A stretch of 64,000 nucleotides of DNA from Solibacillus sp. FSL H8-0523 (GTDB taxonomy: Bacteria > Bacillota > Bacilli > Bacillales_A > Planococcaceae): contig NZ_CP150291.1 of the NCBI RefSeq assembly GCF_038051985.1, forward strand, positions 1,922,001 to 1,986,000, read 5' to 3'. The translations under genes were made by a program, and so were the position numbers. Positions 11,339 through 21,003 of this stretch are shown one piece after another (the stretch's first letter is position 1; the number at the start of each line of letters is the position of its first letter). The notes under the pieces are model-generated. The model was not told the origin of the DNA. It did not search any database and saw only the letters and a list, made by a program, of their open reading frames with translations.

Positions 11339-11399
11339 ACTAAACTAATAAGAATTATAAAATTTAAGCATTGACGTACATCACGTCAATCTGTTAAAT
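11339..11399 (+). promoter_or_regulatory. promoter and operator of the organosulfur operon
   Basis: Sigma-A promoter TTGACG (11371-11376) - 17 bp - TTAAAT (11394-11399). The -35 box is the left arm of a perfect inverted repeat TTGACGTACATCACGTCAA (11371-11389), a good operator candidate. Upstream, TACTAAACTAATAAGAA (about 11339-11355) repeats the motif seen in front of tsuA. No S-box or T-box sequence is present. Promoter by consensus; regulator identities inferred. Confidence 0.55.
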
Positions 11400-11468
11400 T
11401 ACAAATTAAGATTTACCGAATTGCAAGAAAATTCTATAACTTCTAATTTGAGAGGGTGTTTTATACAA

Positions 11469-12608
11469 ATGACAGCAGTGGCAAACATTCAAACAATTGC
11501 CGAGGAGCTCGCAGTGCAGTTTGAAAAAACCGCGGTACAGCGAGACAAAACAGGTGGCAATGCAAAATATGAACGAGACTTAATCCGCAATAGCGGTCTT
11601 TTAAAACTTTTAATTCCAAGTGAGTACGGTGGTTTAGATGGAAATTGGAGAGATGTATTCGAAGTAGTTCGCATTTTCGCACGTGTCGACAGCTCACTGG
11701 CACATGTATTTGGCTACCATTTCATTAACCTAGCAACACCGCACCTGTGTGGGAGTGATGCACAAAAAGAGCACTTCTACCGAGAAACAGCCAAGCGTAA
11801 CCTGTTTTGGGGCAATGCATTCAATCCAGTGGACATTAAATTAGTTGCAACGAAAACAGACACAGGTTACGTACTAAACGGTGTAAAAACATTTTGCTCA
11901 GGCAGCGTTGATTCAGACGTATTATTAGTATCGGCGACTGTAGAAGACCGAGACGAGCCTTTGTTGGCTGTAATACCAAGTAATCGTATTGGTGTAGATA
12001 TAAAAGAGGATTGGGATAATATGGGCCAACGCCAAACCGACAGCGGTACCATCCTTTTCGATCAAGTCGAAGTAACAGCAACAGAAGTGCTTGAACGTGG
12101 CTTTAACGCGAGTGAATTTTCAAAGCTTCGCCTGAATATCGCGACATTTGCACTCAATCACCTCTACTTAGGCATTACAGAAGGGGCGTTGCAGTCAGCC
12201 TTAGCGTACACAAAACAATTTACACGCCCACGTTCCATTTCACAAACGTCGGCCATTGAAGATCCGATTATTCAATACCATTACGGTCAGTTTTATGTAC
12301 AAGTAGAAGCTGCAAATTTAGTGGTCAAGAAGGCCGATGAGCTACTGCTTAAGCTTTGGAACAATCCAAGCGACATTACACCGCAAAAGCGTGCTGAACT
12401 AAGTAAAGCACTACAAACGGCAAAAGTATTTACAACAACGGCCGGCTTAGATATTACATCTCGTATTTTTGAAGTAATGGGTAGCCGCGCAACATCGAAC
12501 CAATTCGGTTTTGATCGATATTGGCGTAACCTTCGTACGATGACGTTACACGTTCCAGTGGACACAACGATTCAAAATTTAGGTCATCTATACTTAACAG
12601 AGGAGTGA
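11469..12608 (+). CDS. DszC/SfnB-like acyl-CoA-dehydrogenase-fold monooxygenase
   Basis: 379 residues with the three-part acyl-CoA dehydrogenase fold: helical N-domain, beta middle domain (G-Y-V-L-N-G-V-K-T-F-C-S-G near 140) and helical C-domain ending in the Y-W-R-N-L-R-T-M-T-L-H block that marks the DszC/SfnB group. These enzymes use reduced FMN and oxygen to oxidise sulfur compounds (for instance sulfide to sulfone, or activation of sulfones). ATG 11469 is preferred over the upstream frame start because GAGAGGGTG precedes it. First gene of the operon, directly before a sulfonate-type ABC transporter, with an FMN reductase at the far end able to supply reduced flavin. Confidence 0.8.
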   Translation: MTAVANIQTIAEELAVQFEKTAVQRDKTGGNAKYERDLIRNSGLLKLLIPSEYGGLDGNWRDVFEVVRIFARVDSSLAHVFGYHFINLATPHLCGSDAQKEHFYRETAKRNLFWGNAFNPVDIKLVATKTDTGYVLNGVKTFCSGSVDSDVLLVSATVEDRDEPLLAVIPSNRIGVDIKEDWDNMGQRQTDSGTILFDQVEVTATEVLERGFNASEFSKLRLNIATFALNHLYLGITEGALQSALAYTKQFTRPRSISQTSAIEDPIIQYHYGQFYVQVEAANLVVKKADELLLKLWNNPSDITPQKRAELSKALQTAKVFTTTAGLDITSRIFEVMGSRATSNQFGFDRYWRNLRTMTLHVPVDTTIQNLGHLYLTEE

Positions 12609-12614
12609 TCACGC

Positions 12615-13484
12615 ATGGTCGTCTTTCAACGAGAGTTTGAACTGCCTACTTCGTTTCCAGAGCAAGAAAAGCGTGTGCGCAACAATAAAATCGAAGCGCG
12701 CGGCATTGATTTTAGCTACGACGGAACGACAAAAATTTTAAATAACATTGATTTAGATGTAAAAGAAGGCGAGTTCCTCGTATTTATGGGACCGTCTGGC
12801 TGTGGGAAAAGTACATTCCTCCGTATGATTGCCGGACTTGAAGGTTTTGATAATGGTGACATCATCATTAATGGTACATCAGTGAAAGAGGCACATCCTG
12901 ATAGCGGTGTTGTGTTCCAAGATTACTCGTTATTCCCGTGGTTAACAGCGCAGGCGAATGTTGTGCTAGCGCTTAAACAACGTAACAAAAAGAAGTCGAA
13001 AAAAGAGCTCGCACATATTGCGGAGGACTATTTAACGCTTGTGAACTTAGGGCATGCATTGAAAAAATATCCTGGGCAAATGTCTGGCGGTATGAAGCAA
13101 CGCGCAGCCATTGCCCGTGCACTTAGCTACGGTTCAGATCTATTACTAATGGATGAACCGTTTGGCGCACTTGATCCAGTCACTCGTATGCAACTGCAAG
13201 ATTTAATTGTGCAAATTCGTGCCCAGCAAAATCGCACGGTCGTCTTTGTCACACATGACGTTGATGAAGCCATTTACTTAGCCGATCGCATTATCATTTT
13301 TGCGCCAGGTAAAAACGGAGCCGTCACAAAATCAATCGAAGTACCTGTAAAAAAAGGCACAAACCGCCAAAAATTATTTGAAAGTTATGAATTCCGTTCG
13401 TTCCGTGAATCGTTATTAAATGAAATGAACGAGCAAATTTTAAATAGTATCAAAACGGAAGTGTCAGAGGGCGCTGGAATTTAG
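12615..13484 (+). CDS. ABC transporter ATPase, sulfonate/taurine type
   Basis: 289 residues. Walker A G-P-S-G-C-G-K-S-T at 59-67, signature M-S-G-G-M-K-Q-R, Walker B L-L-L-M-D-E-P and the F-G-A-L-D D-loop are intact. The S-G-G-M-K-Q-R form and the F-Q-D-Y-S-L-F-P-W Q-loop are typical of the nitrate/sulfonate/taurine importers (SsuB/TauB). It powers import through the permease at 14575 with the binding protein at 13495. Begins six bases after the monooxygenase stop, with GAGGAG as ribosome site; a 20-odd residue N-terminal extension precedes the ATPase core. Confidence 0.88.
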   Translation: MVVFQREFELPTSFPEQEKRVRNNKIEARGIDFSYDGTTKILNNIDLDVKEGEFLVFMGPSGCGKSTFLRMIAGLEGFDNGDIIINGTSVKEAHPDSGVVFQDYSLFPWLTAQANVVLALKQRNKKKSKKELAHIAEDYLTLVNLGHALKKYPGQMSGGMKQRAAIARALSYGSDLLLMDEPFGALDPVTRMQLQDLIVQIRAQQNRTVVFVTHDVDEAIYLADRIIIFAPGKNGAVTKSIEVPVKKGTNRQKLFESYEFRSFRESLLNEMNEQILNSIKTEVSEGAGI

Positions 13485-13494
13485 GGGGAGAACA

Positions 13495-14559
13495 ATGAAG
13501 AAATTTAAATACTTTGCACCATTTCTTTTAGCAGCGAGTGTGTTAGCTGCATGTGGGGATGACAAAGACGTAAAAACAAGCAGTGCAAAAGAGGATTTTG
13601 AAATTACAGTCGGCCTAAGCCAAGCAGCAGGCGGTACATTAGTTGATATCGCGCATCAAGAAGGCTACTTTGAAGATGAAAACGTAACCGTTAACCGCGT
13701 TGGCTTCACAAACTCAGCAGATGGACTAAACGCCTTACAAGCAGGGAAAATCGATGTAGGTTTAACATTCGGTACAGCTGGCCCACTGACATTCATCGCT
13801 AATGGCTCAGACTTCTCGATTATCGGGGGGCATTTAGAAGGTGGACACCCGATTTTAACGAAGAAGGAAAACGCAGGTCAATATACGTCAATGGAAAGTT
13901 ATAAAGGCAAAAAAGTAGGAACGATTCGCATTTTCACATCGGATATCGTGTTCCGCTCAGCGCTTGAAGATGCTGGCATTGACTGGGAAAATGAAGTCGA
14001 TATTGTTGAATTTAAAACAGGAAGCATGTTGCTAGAGGCTGTGGCATCAGGCAAAGTGGATGTCGCCGTTTCCGCAAACTCGTTTTACGCACAGGCGATT
14101 GATATGGGCTTAGAGGCAGTTGCGTGGAGTAATGATTTACAAGAGGGGCATGTTTGCTGCCGCGTCGTGACACGTACGGAGCTCTTATCTGACCAAGATG
14201 GTGAAGGGTACAAACGCTTCTTAAAGGCATTAATTCGTGCAGAGCGCATTAAAAATGAAGATCCACAAGTGGCAATTAAAGCGGCAAAGGAATACATGAA
14301 AGTTGACGACAGTGTTATTGAAACAATCGTTAACGATCCGCATTCAAACTACTCTTCAGACCCAAGTAAGAAAAACGTAGTCGCAATGTGGGAGCAAATG
14401 AAGAAAATTGGATATGTAGAAAATGTAGATGACATTGATGTGAATGATTACGTGAATATTGATCTTTATGAACGCGCACTATCAGAGCTAATTGAGGAGC
14501 ATCCAGAAGATGGCTACTACAAAGAGCAGCTGACACGCTTTAACGAACAAAATATTTAA
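13495..14559 (+). CDS. ABC transporter substrate-binding lipoprotein (SsuA/TauA-like)
   Basis: 354 residues. Signal peptide and lipobox L-A-A-C with Cys20 as the lipid anchor. The N-lobe reads Q-E-G-Y-F-E-D-E-N-V and G-K-I-D-V-G-L-T-F-G-T-A-G-P, the NMT1/SsuA-like pattern of periplasmic-binding-fold proteins for sulfonates, taurine, nitrate or thiamine precursors. The context (monooxygenases for sulfur removal) favours an organosulfur ligand. AGGGGGAG ribosome site. Which compound is bound cannot be read from sequence. Confidence 0.85.
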   Translation: MKKFKYFAPFLLAASVLAACGDDKDVKTSSAKEDFEITVGLSQAAGGTLVDIAHQEGYFEDENVTVNRVGFTNSADGLNALQAGKIDVGLTFGTAGPLTFIANGSDFSIIGGHLEGGHPILTKKENAGQYTSMESYKGKKVGTIRIFTSDIVFRSALEDAGIDWENEVDIVEFKTGSMLLEAVASGKVDVAVSANSFYAQAIDMGLEAVAWSNDLQEGHVCCRVVTRTELLSDQDGEGYKRFLKALIRAERIKNEDPQVAIKAAKEYMKVDDSVIETIVNDPHSNYSSDPSKKNVVAMWEQMKKIGYVENVDDIDVNDYVNIDLYERALSELIEEHPEDGYYKEQLTRFNEQNI

Positions 14560-14574
14560 AGGGAGTGAGACGTC

Positions 14575-15339
14575 ATGCTCACATTTTTTAAGCGCTATAA
14601 TCTTACTATTTTGATAGGAATTCTTGCAATCGTCATGTGGGCACTTGTTACAAAGTATGCAACGTGGATTAATCCCGTCATTTTCCCAGAGCCACTTGTC
14701 GTTGTCGAATCATTCGTAGCGAAATTTGGTGAACTGGTTGGTGGTGTAGGGAGCTCAATGAAGCTGTTAATACCCGGGTTTTTCGGGGCATTACTGGCAG
14801 GGATTGTGTTTGGATTATTCTTCGGCTTAAATAAACGCTCTCGTGAAATTTTAATGCCGTACTTCCATGCACTGAGCCCGATTCCACCGACATTATTTAT
14901 TCCCTATGCGATCGCGCTGCTACCAACATTCCAAACGGCTTCGATGTCACTGATCTTTATCGGCGCATTTTGGCCCATCTTTTTAGGCACGATTCACGGG
15001 GTGCTGTTAATTGATAAGCATTTTTTAGACAACGCCAAATCACTTGGCTTAAAGGGTCCGGAATTTCTGTTTTATGTCGTGTTACCAGCAAGTGCCCCAC
15101 ATATTTTAAGTGGCGCGAGTACATCGCTTGGCATGAGCTTCTTAATCTTAACGATCGCCGAAATGTTCGGTGCATCAAGCGGGATGGGCTTTTTCATCCA
15201 GTATTACAGCGATTTCTCACAATATCATTACGTGTTAGCCGGCATTATTTTTAACTCGATCATTATCGTGACGGTCATGGTTATATTCGAAAAAATTAAA
15301 AAGCGTCTGCTGTTTTGGACGAACTTAAAAGCAGATTAA
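14575..15339 (+). CDS. ABC transporter permease (SsuC-like)
   Basis: 254 residues with about six membrane helices and the cytoplasmic coupling motif around L-D-N-A-K-S-L-G-L-K-G-P (near 145), a variant of the EAA loop in BPD_transp_1 permeases of the sulfonate/nitrate class. It forms the channel for the ATPase and binding protein upstream. Start behind AAAGGGAGTGAG. The FixH-like lipoprotein gene begins one base after its stop, so the transporter and the redox genes are probably translated together. Confidence 0.87.
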   Translation: MLTFFKRYNLTILIGILAIVMWALVTKYATWINPVIFPEPLVVVESFVAKFGELVGGVGSSMKLLIPGFFGALLAGIVFGLFFGLNKRSREILMPYFHALSPIPPTLFIPYAIALLPTFQTASMSLIFIGAFWPIFLGTIHGVLLIDKHFLDNAKSLGLKGPEFLFYVVLPASAPHILSGASTSLGMSFLILTIAEMFGASSGMGFFIQYYSDFSQYHYVLAGIIFNSIIIVTVMVIFEKIKKRLLFWTNLKAD

Positions 15340-15340
15340 C

Positions 15341-15694
15341 TTGAAACGCCTGCTGTTCCTTGTGCTCCTACTAGCTGGCTGTAGCGCACAGGCACATGAA
15401 AACTTACAAGTCACGATTGAAGCAACGAAACAAAGCGTGGAAATATTTGAGCCTGTCACGATTAAAGCAAGCGTTAAAGCGTCGGGAGAGCCGGTAAGTG
15501 CTGATGCAGTCGTCGATTTTGAACTCATACATCCATCGGGCAAAACAATGGGGTCGGTCAACCCAGAAAACAACGGGGACGGCACGTATTCCATTGAAAC
15601 GAGCTTTGACGCGGCAGGTATTTACCGCATCATCTCCCATGTCGATTATGAGAGTGAGCACGAAATGCCGGAAGTAGAGGTGACGGTGAAGTGA
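15341..15694 (+). CDS. FixH/YtkA-like lipoprotein
   Basis: 117 residues. TTG start one base after the permease stop; no clear ribosome site, so translation is likely coupled. Lipobox L-A-G-C with Cys14. The mature part is a small immunoglobulin-like beta domain with an N-N-G-D-G-T-Y-S turn, resembling the YtkA/FixH-like domain found in surface proteins linked to cytochrome oxidase assembly and copper handling. There is no obvious metal ligand cluster. Its place in a sulfur operon next to a thioredoxin-like protein is unusual; it may act with that neighbour outside the cell. Confidence 0.6.
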   Translation: MKRLLFLVLLLAGCSAQAHENLQVTIEATKQSVEIFEPVTIKASVKASGEPVSADAVVDFELIHPSGKTMGSVNPENNGDGTYSIETSFDAAGIYRIISHVDYESEHEMPEVEVTVK

Positions 15695-16170
15695 AACGCA
15701 GCTTACAAATTACGGTCATCCTCGTGCTAGGGCTCGCTGCAGTGTATGCGATTTTCTCAAATAGCGCAAATGACAAAGCATCCGCAGAGGACGTGTCATT
15801 ACAAAATTCAGCGGGTGAGGTGCAAACCATTAAAAAAGGCAACGTAATCTTAAATTTTTGGGCGACGTATTGCCCACCATGCGAACGTGAAATGCCCGAA
15901 TTGAATGCAGCGTATCACGATTTGTTTGACTCGGTACAGCTCTACGCGATTAACGTAGAGGAGCCAACACGAATCGTCAACCAGTATATAAAAAATAAAA
16001 AAGTTGATTTCCCGGTGTTACTTGATCGCACAGGCGAGCTAAAGGACGCTTACAAAATTACCACTTTACCGACAACGCTTTTTATAAAGAATGGTGAAGT
16101 GGTGCACACGGTGAAAGGTGAAATCACCGAAGACGAAATCAAGGTGCTTACAAAACAATACTTAAAATAA
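15691..16170 (+). CDS. membrane-anchored thioredoxin-like protein (ResA/TlpA type)
   Basis: 159 residues. GTG start overlapping the previous stop as GTGA. One N-terminal membrane anchor (residues 6-22), then a thioredoxin fold with the redox motif C61-P-P-C64 in F-W-A-T-Y-C-P-P-C-E-R-E and the cis-proline loop T-L-P-T-T. ResA-type proteins act on the outer side of the membrane, reducing disulfides on c-type apocytochromes or other partners. Here the partner may be the FixH-like lipoprotein or a secreted sulfur compound; this is inferred from overlap alone. Confidence 0.82.
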   Translation: MKRSLQITVILVLGLAAVYAIFSNSANDKASAEDVSLQNSAGEVQTIKKGNVILNFWATYCPPCEREMPELNAAYHDLFDSVQLYAINVEEPTRIVNQYIKNKKVDFPVLLDRTGELKDAYKITTLPTTLFIKNGEVVHTVKGEITEDEIKVLTKQYLK

Positions 16171-16184
16171 AGGAGCAACATCCT

Positions 16185-17483
16185 ATGACATTTTTTAACC
16201 CTGAAACAATCGCCCTGCATACGGGGCAAACGGTAGACCCGGTAACCCGTTCACGTGCAGTACCGCTTTATCAAACAACATCGTACGTATTTGATGACAC
16301 GGAGCATGCAGCAAGCCTGTTCAAATTACAAGGCAGCGGCTACTTATATTCACGTAATGCCAATCCAACAAATGCCGTATTCGAGGAGCGCTTAGCCGCA
16401 CTAGAAGGTGGCGTGGCAGGCTTCGCGGTTTCATCAGGCCAAGCAGCCATTTTAATTGCGGTATTAACGCTCGCTCAAGCAGGGGAAGAAATCGTCGCAA
16501 CGAACGCACTTTACGGCGGTACTTATACCTTATTTTCAAAAACATTACCACGCTTTGGTGTAACCGTACGTTTTGTCGAAGGCTCGGATTTAGCAGCAGT
16601 CGAAGCAGCAATTAATGACAAAACACGCGCGGTATTTACAGAAACGATCGGCAACCCAAGTTTAGAAATCGCTGATATTGAAGGCTTAGCAGCAGTGGCA
16701 CATAAACATGACGTTCCGTTAATTGTGGATAACACATTCGCGACACCGTATTTAAGTAAACCAATCGACTTTGGCGCAGATATTGTCGTGCATTCAACAA
16801 CAAAATTCATCGGTGGGCATGGTACATCACTTGGCGGTGCGATCATTGATGGCGGGAAGTTCGAATGGAAAAAAGAGCGTTTTCCTACATTTGTTGAGCC
16901 AAATGAATTAATCGACAATCGTTCATTTGTTGAAGTAGCTGGTGAAAAGGCCTTTGTTGCAAAGGCACGCTTTGAGTTAGGGCATGATTTAGGGGCAACA
17001 CTTTCTCCATTTAATGCCTGGTTATTCATACAAGGATTAGAGTCATTAGCCGTGCGTGTTCGTCAGCACGTCATTAATGCACAGGCCGTAGCGGAATATT
17101 TAGCACAGCATGAGTTAGTGGAGTGGGTGAATCTGCCAACGATTGAAGGCAATGACCCGAAAAACTTAGTTGAAAAATACTTACCAAAAGGCGCGGGCTC
17201 GATCTTTAGCTTTGGCATCAAAGGTGGGATAGAGGCAGCAAAAGCGTTCATTAATAACGTGGAATTACTGTCACATGTCGCAAACGTCGGGGATTCAAAA
17301 TCACTTGTCATCCATCCTGCAAGTACATCCCATTCACGCTTAACACCAGAGCAGCAGCTAGCGAGCGGCGTGACACCGGGCTTAATTCGCTTATCAATTG
17401 GTTTAGAAGATATAGAAGATATTAAAGCAGACCTTGCACAAGCACTACAAAAAGCAAGCGAAGTCGCACACATCACGAAATAG
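16185..17483 (+). CDS. metY: O-acetylhomoserine sulfhydrylase (aminocarboxypropyltransferase)
   Basis: 432 residues, the length of MetY rather than of the shorter (about 380) MetB/MetC enzymes. Cys/Met-metabolism PLP fold, with Lys207 in H-S-T-T-K-F-I-G-G-H-G as the cofactor Schiff base and the Y-S-R-N-A-N-P-T motif near 57. It joins sulfide (or another thiol) to O-acetylhomoserine to make homocysteine. Within this operon it would fix the sulfur released by the monooxygenases after reduction of sulfite. GGAG ribosome site at 16172. Confidence 0.9.
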   Translation: MTFFNPETIALHTGQTVDPVTRSRAVPLYQTTSYVFDDTEHAASLFKLQGSGYLYSRNANPTNAVFEERLAALEGGVAGFAVSSGQAAILIAVLTLAQAGEEIVATNALYGGTYTLFSKTLPRFGVTVRFVEGSDLAAVEAAINDKTRAVFTETIGNPSLEIADIEGLAAVAHKHDVPLIVDNTFATPYLSKPIDFGADIVVHSTTKFIGGHGTSLGGAIIDGGKFEWKKERFPTFVEPNELIDNRSFVEVAGEKAFVAKARFELGHDLGATLSPFNAWLFIQGLESLAVRVRQHVINAQAVAEYLAQHELVEWVNLPTIEGNDPKNLVEKYLPKGAGSIFSFGIKGGIEAAKAFINNVELLSHVANVGDSKSLVIHPASTSHSRLTPEQQLASGVTPGLIRLSIGLEDIEDIKADLAQALQKASEVAHITK

Positions 17484-17495
17484 GAGGAATTTAAA

Positions 17496-17867
17496 ATGGC
17501 AATCGCAATCGTAATTAATGATGAAGGTATCGTAACACCAATCGTAGAAGGGACGGTGCTACGTATTATTGAGAAAGACGGGACAGCAGAAGATCACCGC
17601 AACCCAGCACTGGATTTAACGGAAGGACGTCGCGGTGCCACATTACGTAAAGCAATCGAATTAGGAGCAACTAAGTTTGTCGCACCCCCTGCAACGTTTT
17701 GTGAATTATCATACGAAAAAGCACAGCAAGAGCAAGTGAAGTTCATTAACATCACTGCAAACCAAACATTTAGCCAAGTTGCACAGCAAATCAAATCAGG
17801 TGCTATTAGCGCGTCAGCAAACTTACCAGCTGATGAAGTCGTTTCAAGTGCACCGGTAACTATTTAA
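17496..17867 (+). CDS. NifX/NifB-type (FeMo-cofactor-like) small protein
   Basis: 123 residues, no membrane segment. The N-terminal strand A-I-A-I-V-I-N-D-E-G-I-V-T-P, a downstream D-H-R-N-P and a G-A-T-L-R-K-A-I-E-L-G-A-T-K-F-V-A-P-P helix-strand resemble the dinitrogenase iron-molybdenum cofactor biosynthesis domain (NifX/NafY). Proteins of this domain bind metal clusters or act in sulfur and molybdenum chemistry. The operon shows no nitrogenase genes, so a role in sulfur metabolism is more likely. The assignment rests on resemblance and is moderate. Confidence 0.45.
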   Translation: MAIAIVINDEGIVTPIVEGTVLRIIEKDGTAEDHRNPALDLTEGRRGATLRKAIELGATKFVAPPATFCELSYEKAQQEQVKFINITANQTFSQVAQQIKSGAISASANLPADEVVSSAPVTI

Positions 17868-17880
17868 GGGGGAAATGACA

Positions 17881-19008
17881 ATGACAAAAGTAGAATTTAT
17901 TACAATGGCGCCAACTTCAGGCGATAGCGAGTACGTAGGAAATCAAGCATCAAAAAAGGATCAACAAACATGGTCTGGCGTTGGTGTGGATTCAGATCGT
18001 CAGCCTTCAGTGGAATACATTACAAAGGTCGCAAAAGCTGCTGAAAAAGCTGGTTTCTCGACATTACTACTACCAATCGGCGGGAGCTGCGTCGATTCAT
18101 TAGTCGCAGCATCTCATTTAACGGCACATACAGAAAAGCTGAAATTCTTATTCGCTGTACGTCCAGGTTCAACGGCACCAACTCAGCTCGCGAAGCAGTT
18201 TGCGTCAGTCAATTACTGGACAAATAACCGTGTGTTCGTAAATGTCGTAACAGGTGGAGCACCAAAAGAATTAGAAAACGATGGCGACTTTTTATCGCAC
18301 GCAGATCGCTACAAGCGTACGCGTGAATACATTGAGATTTTAAAACGCTTATTCAACGGCGAAACTTTCGATTATAACGGCGAGTTCTACACATTAAAAG
18401 GGGCGAATTTACCATTGCCATTAAAAGAAGCACCGCCGATTTTCTTCGGTGGTTCATCTCAAATTGCAAAAGAAGTCGCAACCGATGTAGCAGACGTTTA
18501 TATGCTGTGGGGCGAAACATTAGAAACAACGGCGGAAGAGCTTGAATCCGTTGTGAAATTAGCGAAGGAAAAAAATCGCGACCTGTCATACAGCGTGTCA
18601 TTCCAAGTCGTACTAGGGGATACAGAGGAAGAGGCATACGACAATGCCAACAAAATCATTAGCCATGTCGATCCAGCAGTACTTGAGGCCAAGCATGCCA
18701 ATACAGTTAACAACGGCGCGGTTGGTGTGAGTCGCTTACACCAAATCATGCTCGAATCAAAAGACAATAATTTCGTCATCGCACCAAACATTTGGGCGGG
18801 CTTAACACAAGTGTTATCAGGCAACTCGATTGCTCTAGTCGGCACGCCGCAGCAAGTAGCAGAGCGCGTGGCGGAATTTGTAGACTTAGGCTTTGATAAA
18901 ATTTTACTACGCGGCTTCCCACATCTAGAAGTCATTGAAGAAGTCGGCGCAAAAGTCATTCCGTTAGTACACGCGATTTTAGAAGAACGCGCAAAACTAG
19001 TAGTGTAA
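17881..19008 (+). CDS. ssuD: FMNH2-dependent alkanesulfonate monooxygenase
   Basis: 375 residues from ATG 17881; ATG 17875 two codons earlier is too close to AAGGGGGAA. Luciferase-like (LLM) barrel with the SsuD signatures F-A-V-R-P-G near 100, N-V-V-T-G-G near 120, and the H-A-D-R-Y-K-R-T-R-E-Y segment. SsuD splits the C-S bond of alkanesulfonates with FMNH2 and O2 to give an aldehyde and sulfite. Reduced flavin would come from the reductase at 20355. Lies between the NifX-like gene and a second LLM enzyme. Confidence 0.87.
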   Translation: MTKVEFITMAPTSGDSEYVGNQASKKDQQTWSGVGVDSDRQPSVEYITKVAKAAEKAGFSTLLLPIGGSCVDSLVAASHLTAHTEKLKFLFAVRPGSTAPTQLAKQFASVNYWTNNRVFVNVVTGGAPKELENDGDFLSHADRYKRTREYIEILKRLFNGETFDYNGEFYTLKGANLPLPLKEAPPIFFGGSSQIAKEVATDVADVYMLWGETLETTAEELESVVKLAKEKNRDLSYSVSFQVVLGDTEEEAYDNANKIISHVDPAVLEAKHANTVNNGAVGVSRLHQIMLESKDNNFVIAPNIWAGLTQVLSGNSIALVGTPQQVAERVAEFVDLGFDKILLRGFPHLEVIEEVGAKVIPLVHAILEERAKLVV

Positions 19009-19021
19009 GGGGGAGACGTAC

Positions 19022-20344
19022 ATGACGAAAAAGCAAATGAAATTAGGCTTGTTTTTAATGGGCACAGGCCACCACATCGCTTCATGGCGCCACCCTGAAG
19101 CTCAAGCGGATGCGAGCGAAAACGTAGAGTTCTTTAAAGAAGTTGCGGTAAAAGCTGAAGAAGGAAAGCTGGATATGCTGTTTTTAAGTGACGGCTTAAC
19201 GTTCAATGAGCTATCACACCCAGCCGAGCAAGTGCGCTTTGAACCGCTAACATTACATGCAGTGCTTTCAACGGTAACGAAAAACATCGGCTTAACGGCT
19301 ACGGCTTCAACGACATATAATGAGCCGTTCCATATCGCACGTAAATTCTCATCACTGGATCATTTAAGTGGAGGGCGCGCGGCTTGGAATATCGTGACGT
19401 CTTATTACGAGGCAGAAGCAAGCAACTTCAATCAAGATCAGCACTTAGATCACTCATTACGTTATGAGCGAGCAGACGAGTTTGTTGAAGTCGTAAAAGG
19501 TCTTTGGGATTCTTACGAGGACGATGCATTAGCCCGCAATAAACAAACGGGTGAATATATTACAAAAGGAAAATTACACACACTTAATCATAGAGGCGAA
19601 TACTACTCGGTGCGCGGCCCACTCAATTCAAGCCGCCCCCCACAAGGTCGTCCAGTACTTGTGCAGGCAGGATCATCTGAAGCAGGAACAACACTTGCTG
19701 CGAAACAAGCAGACGTGATTTTTACTGCACAGCAAACGCTAGAAGATGCGCAAAAATTTTATAAGCTATTAAAAGATAAAGCTGTCGCAGCAGGGCGCGA
19801 ACGCGATGATGTGAAAATCATGCCAGGTGTATCGGTGTACGTGGCAGAAACAGAAGAATTAGCACGCGCAAAATACGAGGAGCTGCAACAATTAATCACG
19901 CCTGAAATTGGCTTAGACTTTTTAGCGGATTACTTAGGCTATGATTTATCGAAGCATGATTTAGAGGGCCCGTTACCAAGCGACATCCCGCCAACAAACG
20001 GAAACCGTAGCCGCCAACAGTTAATTATTGAACTAGCAGCGCGTGAAAACTTAACGATCCGCGAGCTGTACTTACGCATTGCCGGCTCACGCGGACACCG
20101 CATTATTTTCGGCTCACCAAGTCAAATCGCTGATCAATTAGAGGAATGGGTAGAGAATGAGGCAGCAGACGGCTTTAACTTAATGCCCCCATACTTCCCA
20201 GGTGGCTTTACGGACTTTATTGATTTAGTCATTCCTGAATTACAAAAGCGAGGTTCATTCCGCACTGAATACGAAGGAACGACACTGCGTGAAAACTTAG
20301 GCTTGCAAGAAGTCAAATCACGCTATACATTACAACAGGTGTAG
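19022..20344 (+). CDS. DszA/NtaA/SnaA-family flavin monooxygenase
   Basis: 440 residues, the size of the NtaA/SnaA/SoxA(DszA) LLM subfamily. Features: H-I-A-S-W-R-H-P near 17-24, the T-A-S-T-T-Y-N-E-P-F-H-I-A-R-K-F block near 95-111 and G-R-A-A-W-N-I-V-T-S. Members oxidise sulfones (DszA), N-acetyl-S-succinocysteine-type thioethers, nitrilotriacetate or dimethyl sulfone with FMNH2. Combined with the DszC-like enzyme at the head of the operon it suggests attack on a sulfide or sulfone, but the substrate is open. AAGGGGGAG ribosome site. Confidence 0.82.
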   Translation: MTKKQMKLGLFLMGTGHHIASWRHPEAQADASENVEFFKEVAVKAEEGKLDMLFLSDGLTFNELSHPAEQVRFEPLTLHAVLSTVTKNIGLTATASTTYNEPFHIARKFSSLDHLSGGRAAWNIVTSYYEAEASNFNQDQHLDHSLRYERADEFVEVVKGLWDSYEDDALARNKQTGEYITKGKLHTLNHRGEYYSVRGPLNSSRPPQGRPVLVQAGSSEAGTTLAAKQADVIFTAQQTLEDAQKFYKLLKDKAVAAGRERDDVKIMPGVSVYVAETEELARAKYEELQQLITPEIGLDFLADYLGYDLSKHDLEGPLPSDIPPTNGNRSRQQLIIELAARENLTIRELYLRIAGSRGHRIIFGSPSQIADQLEEWVENEAADGFNLMPPYFPGGFTDFIDLVIPELQKRGSFRTEYEGTTLRENLGLQEVKSRYTLQQV

Positions 20345-20354
20345 GAGGATTTTT

Positions 20355-20885
20355 ATGACAAAAGCAATTTTAATTAATGGTGGCAATAGTATTGCATCCC
20401 GTTTAACGGGTGTAGAAAATGTTATCGCAGCGAATTTACAGGCAAAGGGTGTTGAGGTGGATGTAATTCAAGTACACCAATTACCAGCAGATGATTTAAT
20501 AACGGCAAACTATGCGAGTGAAGCAATCGCGAAGGAAATTATCAAGGTGGGCGAGGCAGATATCGTTGTATTTTTAACGCCGATTTATAAAGGCTCATAC
20601 ACAGGCATTTTAAAAACGTTTATTGATTTACTGCCGCAAAAAGGCTTAGAAGGCAAGCAAGTAATCCCTGTGGCAATCGGTGGATCAATTGCACATTTAC
20701 TGGCGCTTGAGTATTCGTTGAAGCCGGTGCTATCAATTTTAGGTGCAACGACTATTGAAAGCCCGATTTATATTGTCGATTCACAGGTAGCGCGTACGGA
20801 TGATGGGTTTACTTTAGATGAGGCGGCGACTGAACGAATTGAGAAGGTTTTTTCAAGTGTTGGTAGAGTTCAAGTAGGCGTATAA
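20355..20885 (+). CDS. ssuE: NAD(P)H-dependent FMN reductase, SsuE-like
   Basis: 176 residues, flavodoxin-like fold. N-terminal phosphate loop I-N-G-G-N-S-I-A-S-R-L and the T-P-I-Y-K-G-S-Y-T-G-I-L-K motif near 75-88 are those of SsuE-type reductases, which deliver free FMNH2. It is the last gene of the operon and can serve all three flavin monooxygenases at 11469, 17881 and 19022. TAGGAGG ribosome site. Confidence 0.85.
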   Translation: MTKAILINGGNSIASRLTGVENVIAANLQAKGVEVDVIQVHQLPADDLITANYASEAIAKEIIKVGEADIVVFLTPIYKGSYTGILKTFIDLLPQKGLEGKQVIPVAIGGSIAHLLALEYSLKPVLSILGATTIESPIYIVDSQVARTDDGFTLDEAATERIEKVFSSVGRVQVGV

Positions 20886-20970: not shown

Positions 20971-21003
20971 GAGGTAGCCGGTTTTTGGCTACCTCATTTT
21001 TTT
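20971..21003 (+). terminator. terminator of the organosulfur operon
   Basis: Perfect stem GAGGTAGCC / GGCTACCTC, then ATTTTTTT. Confidence 0.9.

Follow-up and report, generated by a model that had tools for sequence, protein, structure and literature searches.

In Pseudomonas, the sfn/msu pathway for dimethylsulfone (SfnG, MsuC, MsuD, MsuE) combines two luciferase-fold enzymes that cleave C-S bonds with a sulfur oxygenase of the MsuC type and a flavin mononucleotide (FMN) reductase, as described in excerpts of PMC8234197 and PMC13352529. Other systems of this kind are the 4S pathway (DszA, DszB, DszC), ssuEADCB in E. coli and the CmoO/CmoJ salvage pathway in B. subtilis. We compared these systems to an operon of eleven genes in the soil bacterium Solibacillus sp. 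FSL H8-0523, located at positions 11469-20885 of a stretch of 64,000 nucleotides (contig NZ_CP150291.1, positions 1,922,001 to 1,986,000 of the forward strand), which is referred to here as the window. We propose, with a probability of about 0.5, that this operon scavenges sulfur from an organosulfur compound other than a simple alkanesulfonate in FMNH2-dependent reactions, with the sulfur being fixed by MetY. The operon points to a hitherto unassigned organosulfur substrate.

As in the sfn/msu pathway, the operon encodes two luciferase-fold enzymes, one enzyme of the MsuC/DszC branch and one FMN reductase, but an NtaA/DmoA-family enzyme takes the place of SfnG, the SsuD-like enzyme lacks the sulfonate-binding residues, and MetY and a protein with a predicted NifX fold are additional. 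As in the 4S pathway, an enzyme of the DszC branch is encoded together with one of TIGR03860, whereas the family searches named no DszB in the operon; both enzymes lie outside the Dsz clades, and the DszC cut-off is not attained. An importer, a luciferase-fold monooxygenase and an SsuE reductase are also encoded by ssuEADCB in E. coli, but the SsuD-like enzyme is 37% identical to E. coli SsuD and lacks Arg225, His227, Arg296 and the RGGA loop (MsuD numbering). C-S cleavage of the TIGR03860 type is common to the CmoO/CmoJ pathway, and among solved structures CmoJ is the closest in sequence, but the enzyme of the operon belongs to another clade, and MetY is found instead of an acetyltransferase or a deacetylase, none of which is encoded among the eleven genes.

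The eleven genes are located on the + strand, with intergenic gaps of at most 15 bp and a single overlap of 4 bp. Searches with hidden Markov models (HMMs) identified a DszC/MsuC-type monooxygenase, SsuB, SsuA/NMT1, SsuC/TauC, MetY, an SsuD-like enzyme, an NtaA/DmoA-family enzyme and SsuE; several of the proteins, the components of the transporter among them, score well below the curated cut-offs of the nearest named models. A previous reading of the same DNA from its letters (the sequence-only reading) had described one operon with three types of flavin monooxygenases, their FMN reductase, a sulfonate-type importer and MetY, and the co-directional genes at these coordinates bear it out. Missing from its list were a YtkA-like lipoprotein (15341-15694), a TlpA/ResA-like thiol-disulfide oxidoreductase (15691-16170) and a protein of 123 amino acids (17496-17867).

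In the proposed function, the Ssu-type ATP-binding cassette (ABC) importer would take up the organosulfur compound, and the NADPH-dependent FMN reductase of the SsuE type (20355-20885; TIGR03567, 181.4 bits versus a cut-off of 164.05) would supply FMNH2. According to excerpts of PMC13352529, a single reductase can power eight named monooxygenases. The MsuC/DszC-branch enzyme would oxygenate the sulfur, and the two luciferase-fold enzymes may cut C-S bonds in a substrate that is neutral or at any rate not a sulfonate (a thioether, sulfoxide or sulfone). The reduced sulfur (a thiol or sulfide), or sulfite after the action of CysJI, would then be joined to O-acetylhomoserine by the dedicated MetY. 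The NifX-fold protein would assist MetY and the enzymes that cleave C-S bonds as a conserved accessory, and might carry sulfur or metal-sulfur via its invariant cysteine. The analysis shows the gene content and its synteny, the genes for CysJI, the lost sulfonate-binding residues and the fold predicted for the small protein; it is the substrate class, the order of the steps and a direct transfer to MetY that we infer.

The SsuD-like luciferase-fold monooxygenase (17875-19008), as classified by HMM and alignment, has MsuD (250 bits) and SsuD (247 bits) as its best solved relatives in a sequence search of the PDB, and scores 308.7 bits on the alkanesulfonate equivalog model TIGR03565, as compared to a cut-off of 518.2 bits. 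The sulfonate-binding motif of MsuD consists of W195, R225, R296 and the RGGA loop, and sulfite was not measurable for the R225A, R296A and W195A variants, according to excerpts of PMC8234197. We aligned 24 SsuD-like proteins from the Bacillales, namely 12 from loci with the 123-aa protein and 12 further ones; 11 of the 24 are from Solibacillus, including the window enzyme. In all 24, Arg225 is replaced by Ser, Arg296 by Leu or Ile, His227 by Gln, and the RGGA loop by LSGN or ISGN; a second luciferase-fold paralogue in Oceanobacillus belongs to another subfamily and was left out of the count. Trp195, which stacks on FMN, is kept in the SsuD-like enzyme and its Bacillales relatives, and the three controls (E. 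coli SsuD, P. aeruginosa MsuD and Nostoc SsuD) keep R225, R296, H227 and RGGA.

Because the sulfonate-binding residues of MsuD are missing, the SsuD-like enzyme is, from its sequence, unlikely to be an alkanesulfonate monooxygenase. It is the best match in the genome with E. coli SsuD as the query, and no closer SsuD was found elsewhere in the genome, the other two matches being weak and to NtaA-family proteins. The suggestion in the sequence-only reading that SsuD would cover alkanesulfonates is thus not supported. SfnG, which acts on neutral dimethyl sulfone, also lacks Arg225, as seen in a two-step alignment. By similarity alone, the Bacillales clade could be named alkanesulfonate monooxygenase, and the use of sulfonates in this group may be over-predicted.

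The same residues bear on a route similar to sfn/msu, in which the NtaA-family enzyme would convert a sulfone to a sulfinate, the MsuC-like enzyme would oxidize it to a sulfonate and the SsuD-like enzyme would release sulfite, followed by CysJI and MetY. We consider this route rather unlikely even though the enzyme types are those of SfnG, MsuC and MsuD and a single FMN reductase would serve them all, the nearest PDB relative of the first enzyme in the operon is MsuC, and both CysI and CysJ are encoded in the genome: in the enzyme for the last oxidation, Arg225, Arg296 and the RGGA loop are all missing, while in MsuD the single replacement R225A or R296A already left no measurable sulfite, and the genome has no closer SsuD. 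A path from a sulfide or sulfone through a sulfinate or sulfonate to sulfite had been suggested previously; the organosulfur gene content on which it was built stands, while the loss of these residues contradicts the sulfonate step.

The NtaA/DmoA-family monooxygenase (19022-20344) passes the cut-off of the TIGR03860 subfamily (585.6 versus 279.7 bits). Its highest-scoring matches in the PDB are YtnJ (CmoJ; 376 bits), chain B of 7e36 (357 bits), 3sdo (353 bits) and DszA (330 bits). In a tree of 27 sequences, with 3sdo represented only in part and without the original NtaA, this protein is placed in a clade of nine Bacillales members (support 100/100), all of which come from loci with the 123-aa protein. 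DszA and BdsA form a separate clade (100/100), and CmoJ and 3sdo are found in another clade of six sequences (100/100), apart from the operon enzyme, that also contains NtaA-family enzymes encoded as second copies in several reduced loci (see below). The description of this protein as DszA/NtaA-like can therefore be retained for the NtaA/DmoA family (TIGR03860), but not for an identity with DszA or a clustering with CmoJ and 3sdo. Since its clade contains no characterised member in the tree, the sulfur role of the enzyme is one that we infer from its neighbours.

Salvage of S-alkylcysteine or S-succinocysteine by sulfoxidation and subsequent C-S cleavage to a thiol, as in the Cmo/Yxe systems of B. 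subtilis, would be in line with CmoJ being the best PDB match, with a chemistry that is compatible with thiol release, and with the position of these second NtaA-family enzymes on the CmoJ side of the tree. CmoJ, a homologue within this family, yields a sulfenic acid, which subsequently undergoes reduction, according to excerpts of PMC10863075; this also speaks for the function proposed above. Such a salvage is quite improbable here, in that the eleven genes include neither acetyltransferase nor deacetylase, the operon enzyme lies outside the CmoJ clade, and MetY yields homocysteine rather than recovered cysteine. An oxidation of nitrogen or carbon compounds (nitrilotriacetate, ethylenediaminetetraacetate (EDTA), alkanes) with no role in sulfur metabolism is highly improbable, since MetY, an MsuC/DszC-branch enzyme and an Ssu-type importer are encoded in the same operon, the enzyme is not in the clade with 3sdo, and EDTA monooxygenase ranks among the lowest of the PDB matches (213 bits), despite TIGR03860 being the NtaA/DmoA family and 3sdo ranking above DszA. 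The two enzymes that had been proposed for phylogenetic placement do not both fall with non-sulfur proteins, the nearest relatives of the first being the sulfur enzymes MsuC and DszC.

This first enzyme (11469-12608) is a flavin monooxygenase of the DszC/MsuC branch with the acyl-CoA dehydrogenase fold, and is most similar to MsuC in the PDB (329 bits and 42.6% identity, as compared to 279 bits for DszC). It scores below the cut-offs of both the DszC model (NF043015, 328.3 versus 850 bits) and the SfnB model (TIGR04022, 241.5 versus 430.9 bits); a plasmid-encoded DszC scores 865.4 on the former. The corresponding scores for P. aeruginosa MsuC are 349 and 274 (328 and 242 for the operon enzyme), the MsuC reference being an acyl-CoA-dehydrogenase-type gene that follows msuE and a gene named ssuD on a plasmid, and is presumed to be msuC from this gene order. 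Uncharacterised proteins from Rhizobium, Caballeronia and Synechococcus give the same order of scores, so the pattern speaks against SfnB but not for MsuC alone. In a tree of 15 sequences the protein falls in a Bacillales clade (91/100), whose branching relative to MsuC and DszC is without resolution. Of the earlier assignment as DszC/SfnB-like, the MsuC/DszC side is kept, and the HMM scores argue against SfnB. According to excerpts of PMC13352529, enzymes with the acyl-CoA dehydrogenase fold oxidise dimethyl sulfide and sulfoxide. Catalytic residues of DszC, compared by residue number, did not line up with those of the plasmid DszC and were not used.

MetY, an O-acetylhomoserine sulfhydrylase (16185-17483), scores 609.1 bits on TIGR01326 (cut-off 495.1). 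The MetY proteins of the operon type share 64 to 95% identity with the window copy, as compared to 55% for the second MetY in the genome, at 274.8 kb; the 55% figure is the one used here, as a MetY tree of 12 distinct sequences had little support. The operon-borne MetY noted in the sequence-only reading is thus distinct from the other genomic copy, and fits the gene content of an organosulfur operon. CysI, CysJ, CysH, CysD and a CysN/CysC fusion are encoded at 3260-3279 kb and pass the curated cut-offs. Since CysI and CysJ are encoded, sulfite can be reduced to sulfide, at a locus outside the operon as previously assumed.

The protein of 123 amino acids (17496-17867) has no match in Pfam or NCBIfam at 1e-3, and a sequence search of the PDB gave no significant match. 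We used 21 sequences to predict its structure with AlphaFold2, which yielded a predicted local distance difference test score of 90.7 and a predicted template modelling score of 0.84. In Foldseek, the seven top rows, which cover six PDB entries, belong to the NifX, NafY and orange-protein group, and so do the ten top entries in VIA-align, with Z scores from 16.2 to 10.0 and the next match at 6.2. Among these, MTH1175, PH0822 and the untitled TM1816 entry are ones that we take to be of the NifX/orange-protein kind, as their titles are silent on this point. From this model, a NifX/orange-protein fold is confidently predicted. An alignment of 28 members shows Cys69, Gly19, Asn36, Arg46, Pro65, Ser72 and Ala76 to be invariant.

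The small protein thus shares the predicted fold of NifX, NafY, MTH1175 and the orange protein (PF02579), with Z scores of 10.0 to 16.2 to ten PDB entries, but differs from these proteins in that none of 21 members has a Pfam match at 1e-3, and in showing no significant profile similarity and no HFG motif, which is present in 18 of the 18 PF02579 domains compared. An hhalign comparison to PF02579 was not significant, in a test that is weakened by the domains having been taken from 18 of 25 fetched loci and cut at the start of the match, and homology by profile was therefore not claimed beyond the fold. An identity as AnfO was rejected, with a best E-value of 0.044 and matches in 2 of the 21 members. 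No nitrogenase component is encoded in the host genome, and a link to a nitrogenase-like C-S reductase was discarded, since no PF00148 protein was found in the genome.

In total, 20 loci with the small protein were examined in named genomes, 18 of which were viewed about 6.5 kb to each side, the other two being Solibacillus loci (L033, L034). An SsuD-like and/or an NtaA-family homologue is located nearby in 19 of the 20, with SsuD-like homologues in 12 (at least 54% identity), NtaA-family homologues in 16 (at least 57%) and MetY in 15 (at least 64%). As there are six PF00296 proteins in the 4.14-Mb genome, chance alone would be expected to produce such neighbours in a few per cent of cases. 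In two additional loci from the genome sample (L119, L120), genes of the SsuD-like and NtaA-family types again accompany the small protein. Reduced loci occur in Terribacillus, Fredinandcohnia and Bacillus sp. REN16: they retain MetY, NtaA-family enzymes and the small protein, and no SsuD-like or MsuC-like genes were found in the range shown. These loci suggest that a cleavage product can pass to MetY.

The component of the operon with the greatest novelty is the NifX-fold protein, and its recurrence links a fold of nitrogenase accessory proteins to aerobic C-S cleavage. A far-reaching version of the proposal holds that the small protein founds a new NifX-fold family, in which the invariant cysteine would carry sulfur (as a persulfide) or a metal-sulfur cluster from the C-S-cleaving flavoenzymes to MetY and thereby channel organic sulfur into homocysteine, and that the SsuD-like clade would represent a new class of luciferase-fold monooxygenases with a non-sulfonate substrate; taken as a whole, we regard this version as unlikely. 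Neither the operon nor the small protein is described among the matches listed in a search of the open-licence part of PubMed Central, with subscription papers outside the search.

Using the 123-aa protein as the query, we found matches in 14 of 151 genomes: the window genome itself, 10 of 15 congeners, one Rummeliibacillus and two with weak matches (G104, G067), of which that in G067 (4.6e-4) sits in a frame of 388 amino acids and is probably spurious. The order of the eleven genes is kept in all 10 congeners with a match, that is in 10 of the 15 genomes of the genus, so the operon is not due to chance. In the five congeners that lack the small protein, the searches gave no SsuD-like match, a result that, with no positive control in the same search, proves nothing when taken alone, and no NtaA-family match except for one homologue of 34% identity in one genome. 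As far as the genes tested are concerned, the cluster is present or absent as a whole. In a further sample of 397 other Bacilli genomes, 8 had a match at 1e-3, one of which (G407) is weak and probably spurious.

Several observations weigh against the proposed function. Many of the 24 SsuD-like sequences are from congeners and hence not independent, and a paralogue of this kind might bind sulfonates through other residues. In the HMM searches the importer resembles sulfonate and nitrate types, and 3sdo, deposited as nitrilotriacetate monooxygenase, outscores DszA (353 versus 330 bits). MsuC is slow on methanesulfinate and a deletion of msuC in Acinetobacter baylyi gave no significant defect, according to excerpts of PMC13352529, and an MsuC-like gene therefore does not fix the reaction. 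MetY could merely fix sulfide made by CysJI from sulfite, so that its presence is no proof of the release of a thiol or sulfide. The putative role of the small protein is based on its neighbourhood and a predicted fold, and distant members (L116, L036, L118) adjoin a TIGR04053 radical S-adenosylmethionine/SPASM protein and spore photoproduct lyase, FeoB, and class II aldolase; the family is thus wider than the organosulfur operons.

Variant loci were also observed. The four that lack a close NtaA-family homologue hold a CoA-transferase-like gene instead (L055, L057 and L060 by HMM, L061 by resemblance). In these four and in L041, genes for a CoA-transferase III and an enoyl-CoA-hydratase-like protein, the latter tested by HMM in L041 only, replace the close NtaA-family enzyme and MetY, suggesting a CoA-linked substrate. 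L041 is located on a plasmid of Peribacillus frigoritolerans (NZ_CP085396) with an integrase and a cysteine-dioxygenase-like gene nearby, and this cluster may be mobile. In Terrilactibacillus sp. S3-3 (L054), the genes for MetY and for the NtaA-family enzyme are both broken into two open reading frames, and the cluster may be decaying. A small open reading frame of about 90 to 120 amino acids with a PDLQF-WC-like stretch is located upstream of MetY in six loci (L048, L051, L053, L056, L058, L059); the two that were tested had no significant match in Pfam.

The importer consists of an SsuB-type ABC ATPase (12615-13484), an SsuA/NMT1-type binding lipoprotein (13495-14559; SsuA_fam, 92.4 bits versus a cut-off of 163.5) and an SsuC/TauC-type permease (14575-15339), the ATPase and permease being assigned by HMM. 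A pair of cysteines in the binding protein (HVCCRVV) aligns with a cysteine-rich stretch of THI13; it is kept in the copies from Solibacillus and Schinkia and is absent from the other six binding proteins in the alignment. The YtkA-like and TlpA/ResA-like genes, both identified by HMM, are located inside the operon in all 11 Solibacillus copies, and the former occurs only in the Solibacillus version among the operons compared. Neither was found near the small protein in 19 other loci, apart from a weak TlpA match of 21% in L054.

Upstream of the operon, a promoter-like site (11371-11400, + strand) contains TTGAC in 11 of the 11 aligned upstream regions from Solibacillus, and downstream a terminator-like hairpin of 11 pairs followed by a T-run was identified (20971-20995, + strand). 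Such matches are no more common in the region than in shuffled sequences (16 versus a mean of 20.9 for promoters, and 10 versus a mean of 11.4 for terminators), so that their support comes from position only, with conservation in addition for the promoter. No riboswitch or other RNA element was detected in the window, with 0 Rfam matches at the gathering thresholds. The upstream palindrome TTGACGTACATCACGTCAA was set aside as an element, since the congeners keep its TTGAC part only. A leader around GAATTGCAAGAAAATTC recurs with small changes in the aligned Solibacillus upstream regions. An imperfect inverted repeat, GAATT-N7-AATTC, is found in the leader on the 3' side of the promoter-like site (11371-11469 in the window) in the Solibacillus copies, and is a possible candidate for a regulator site.

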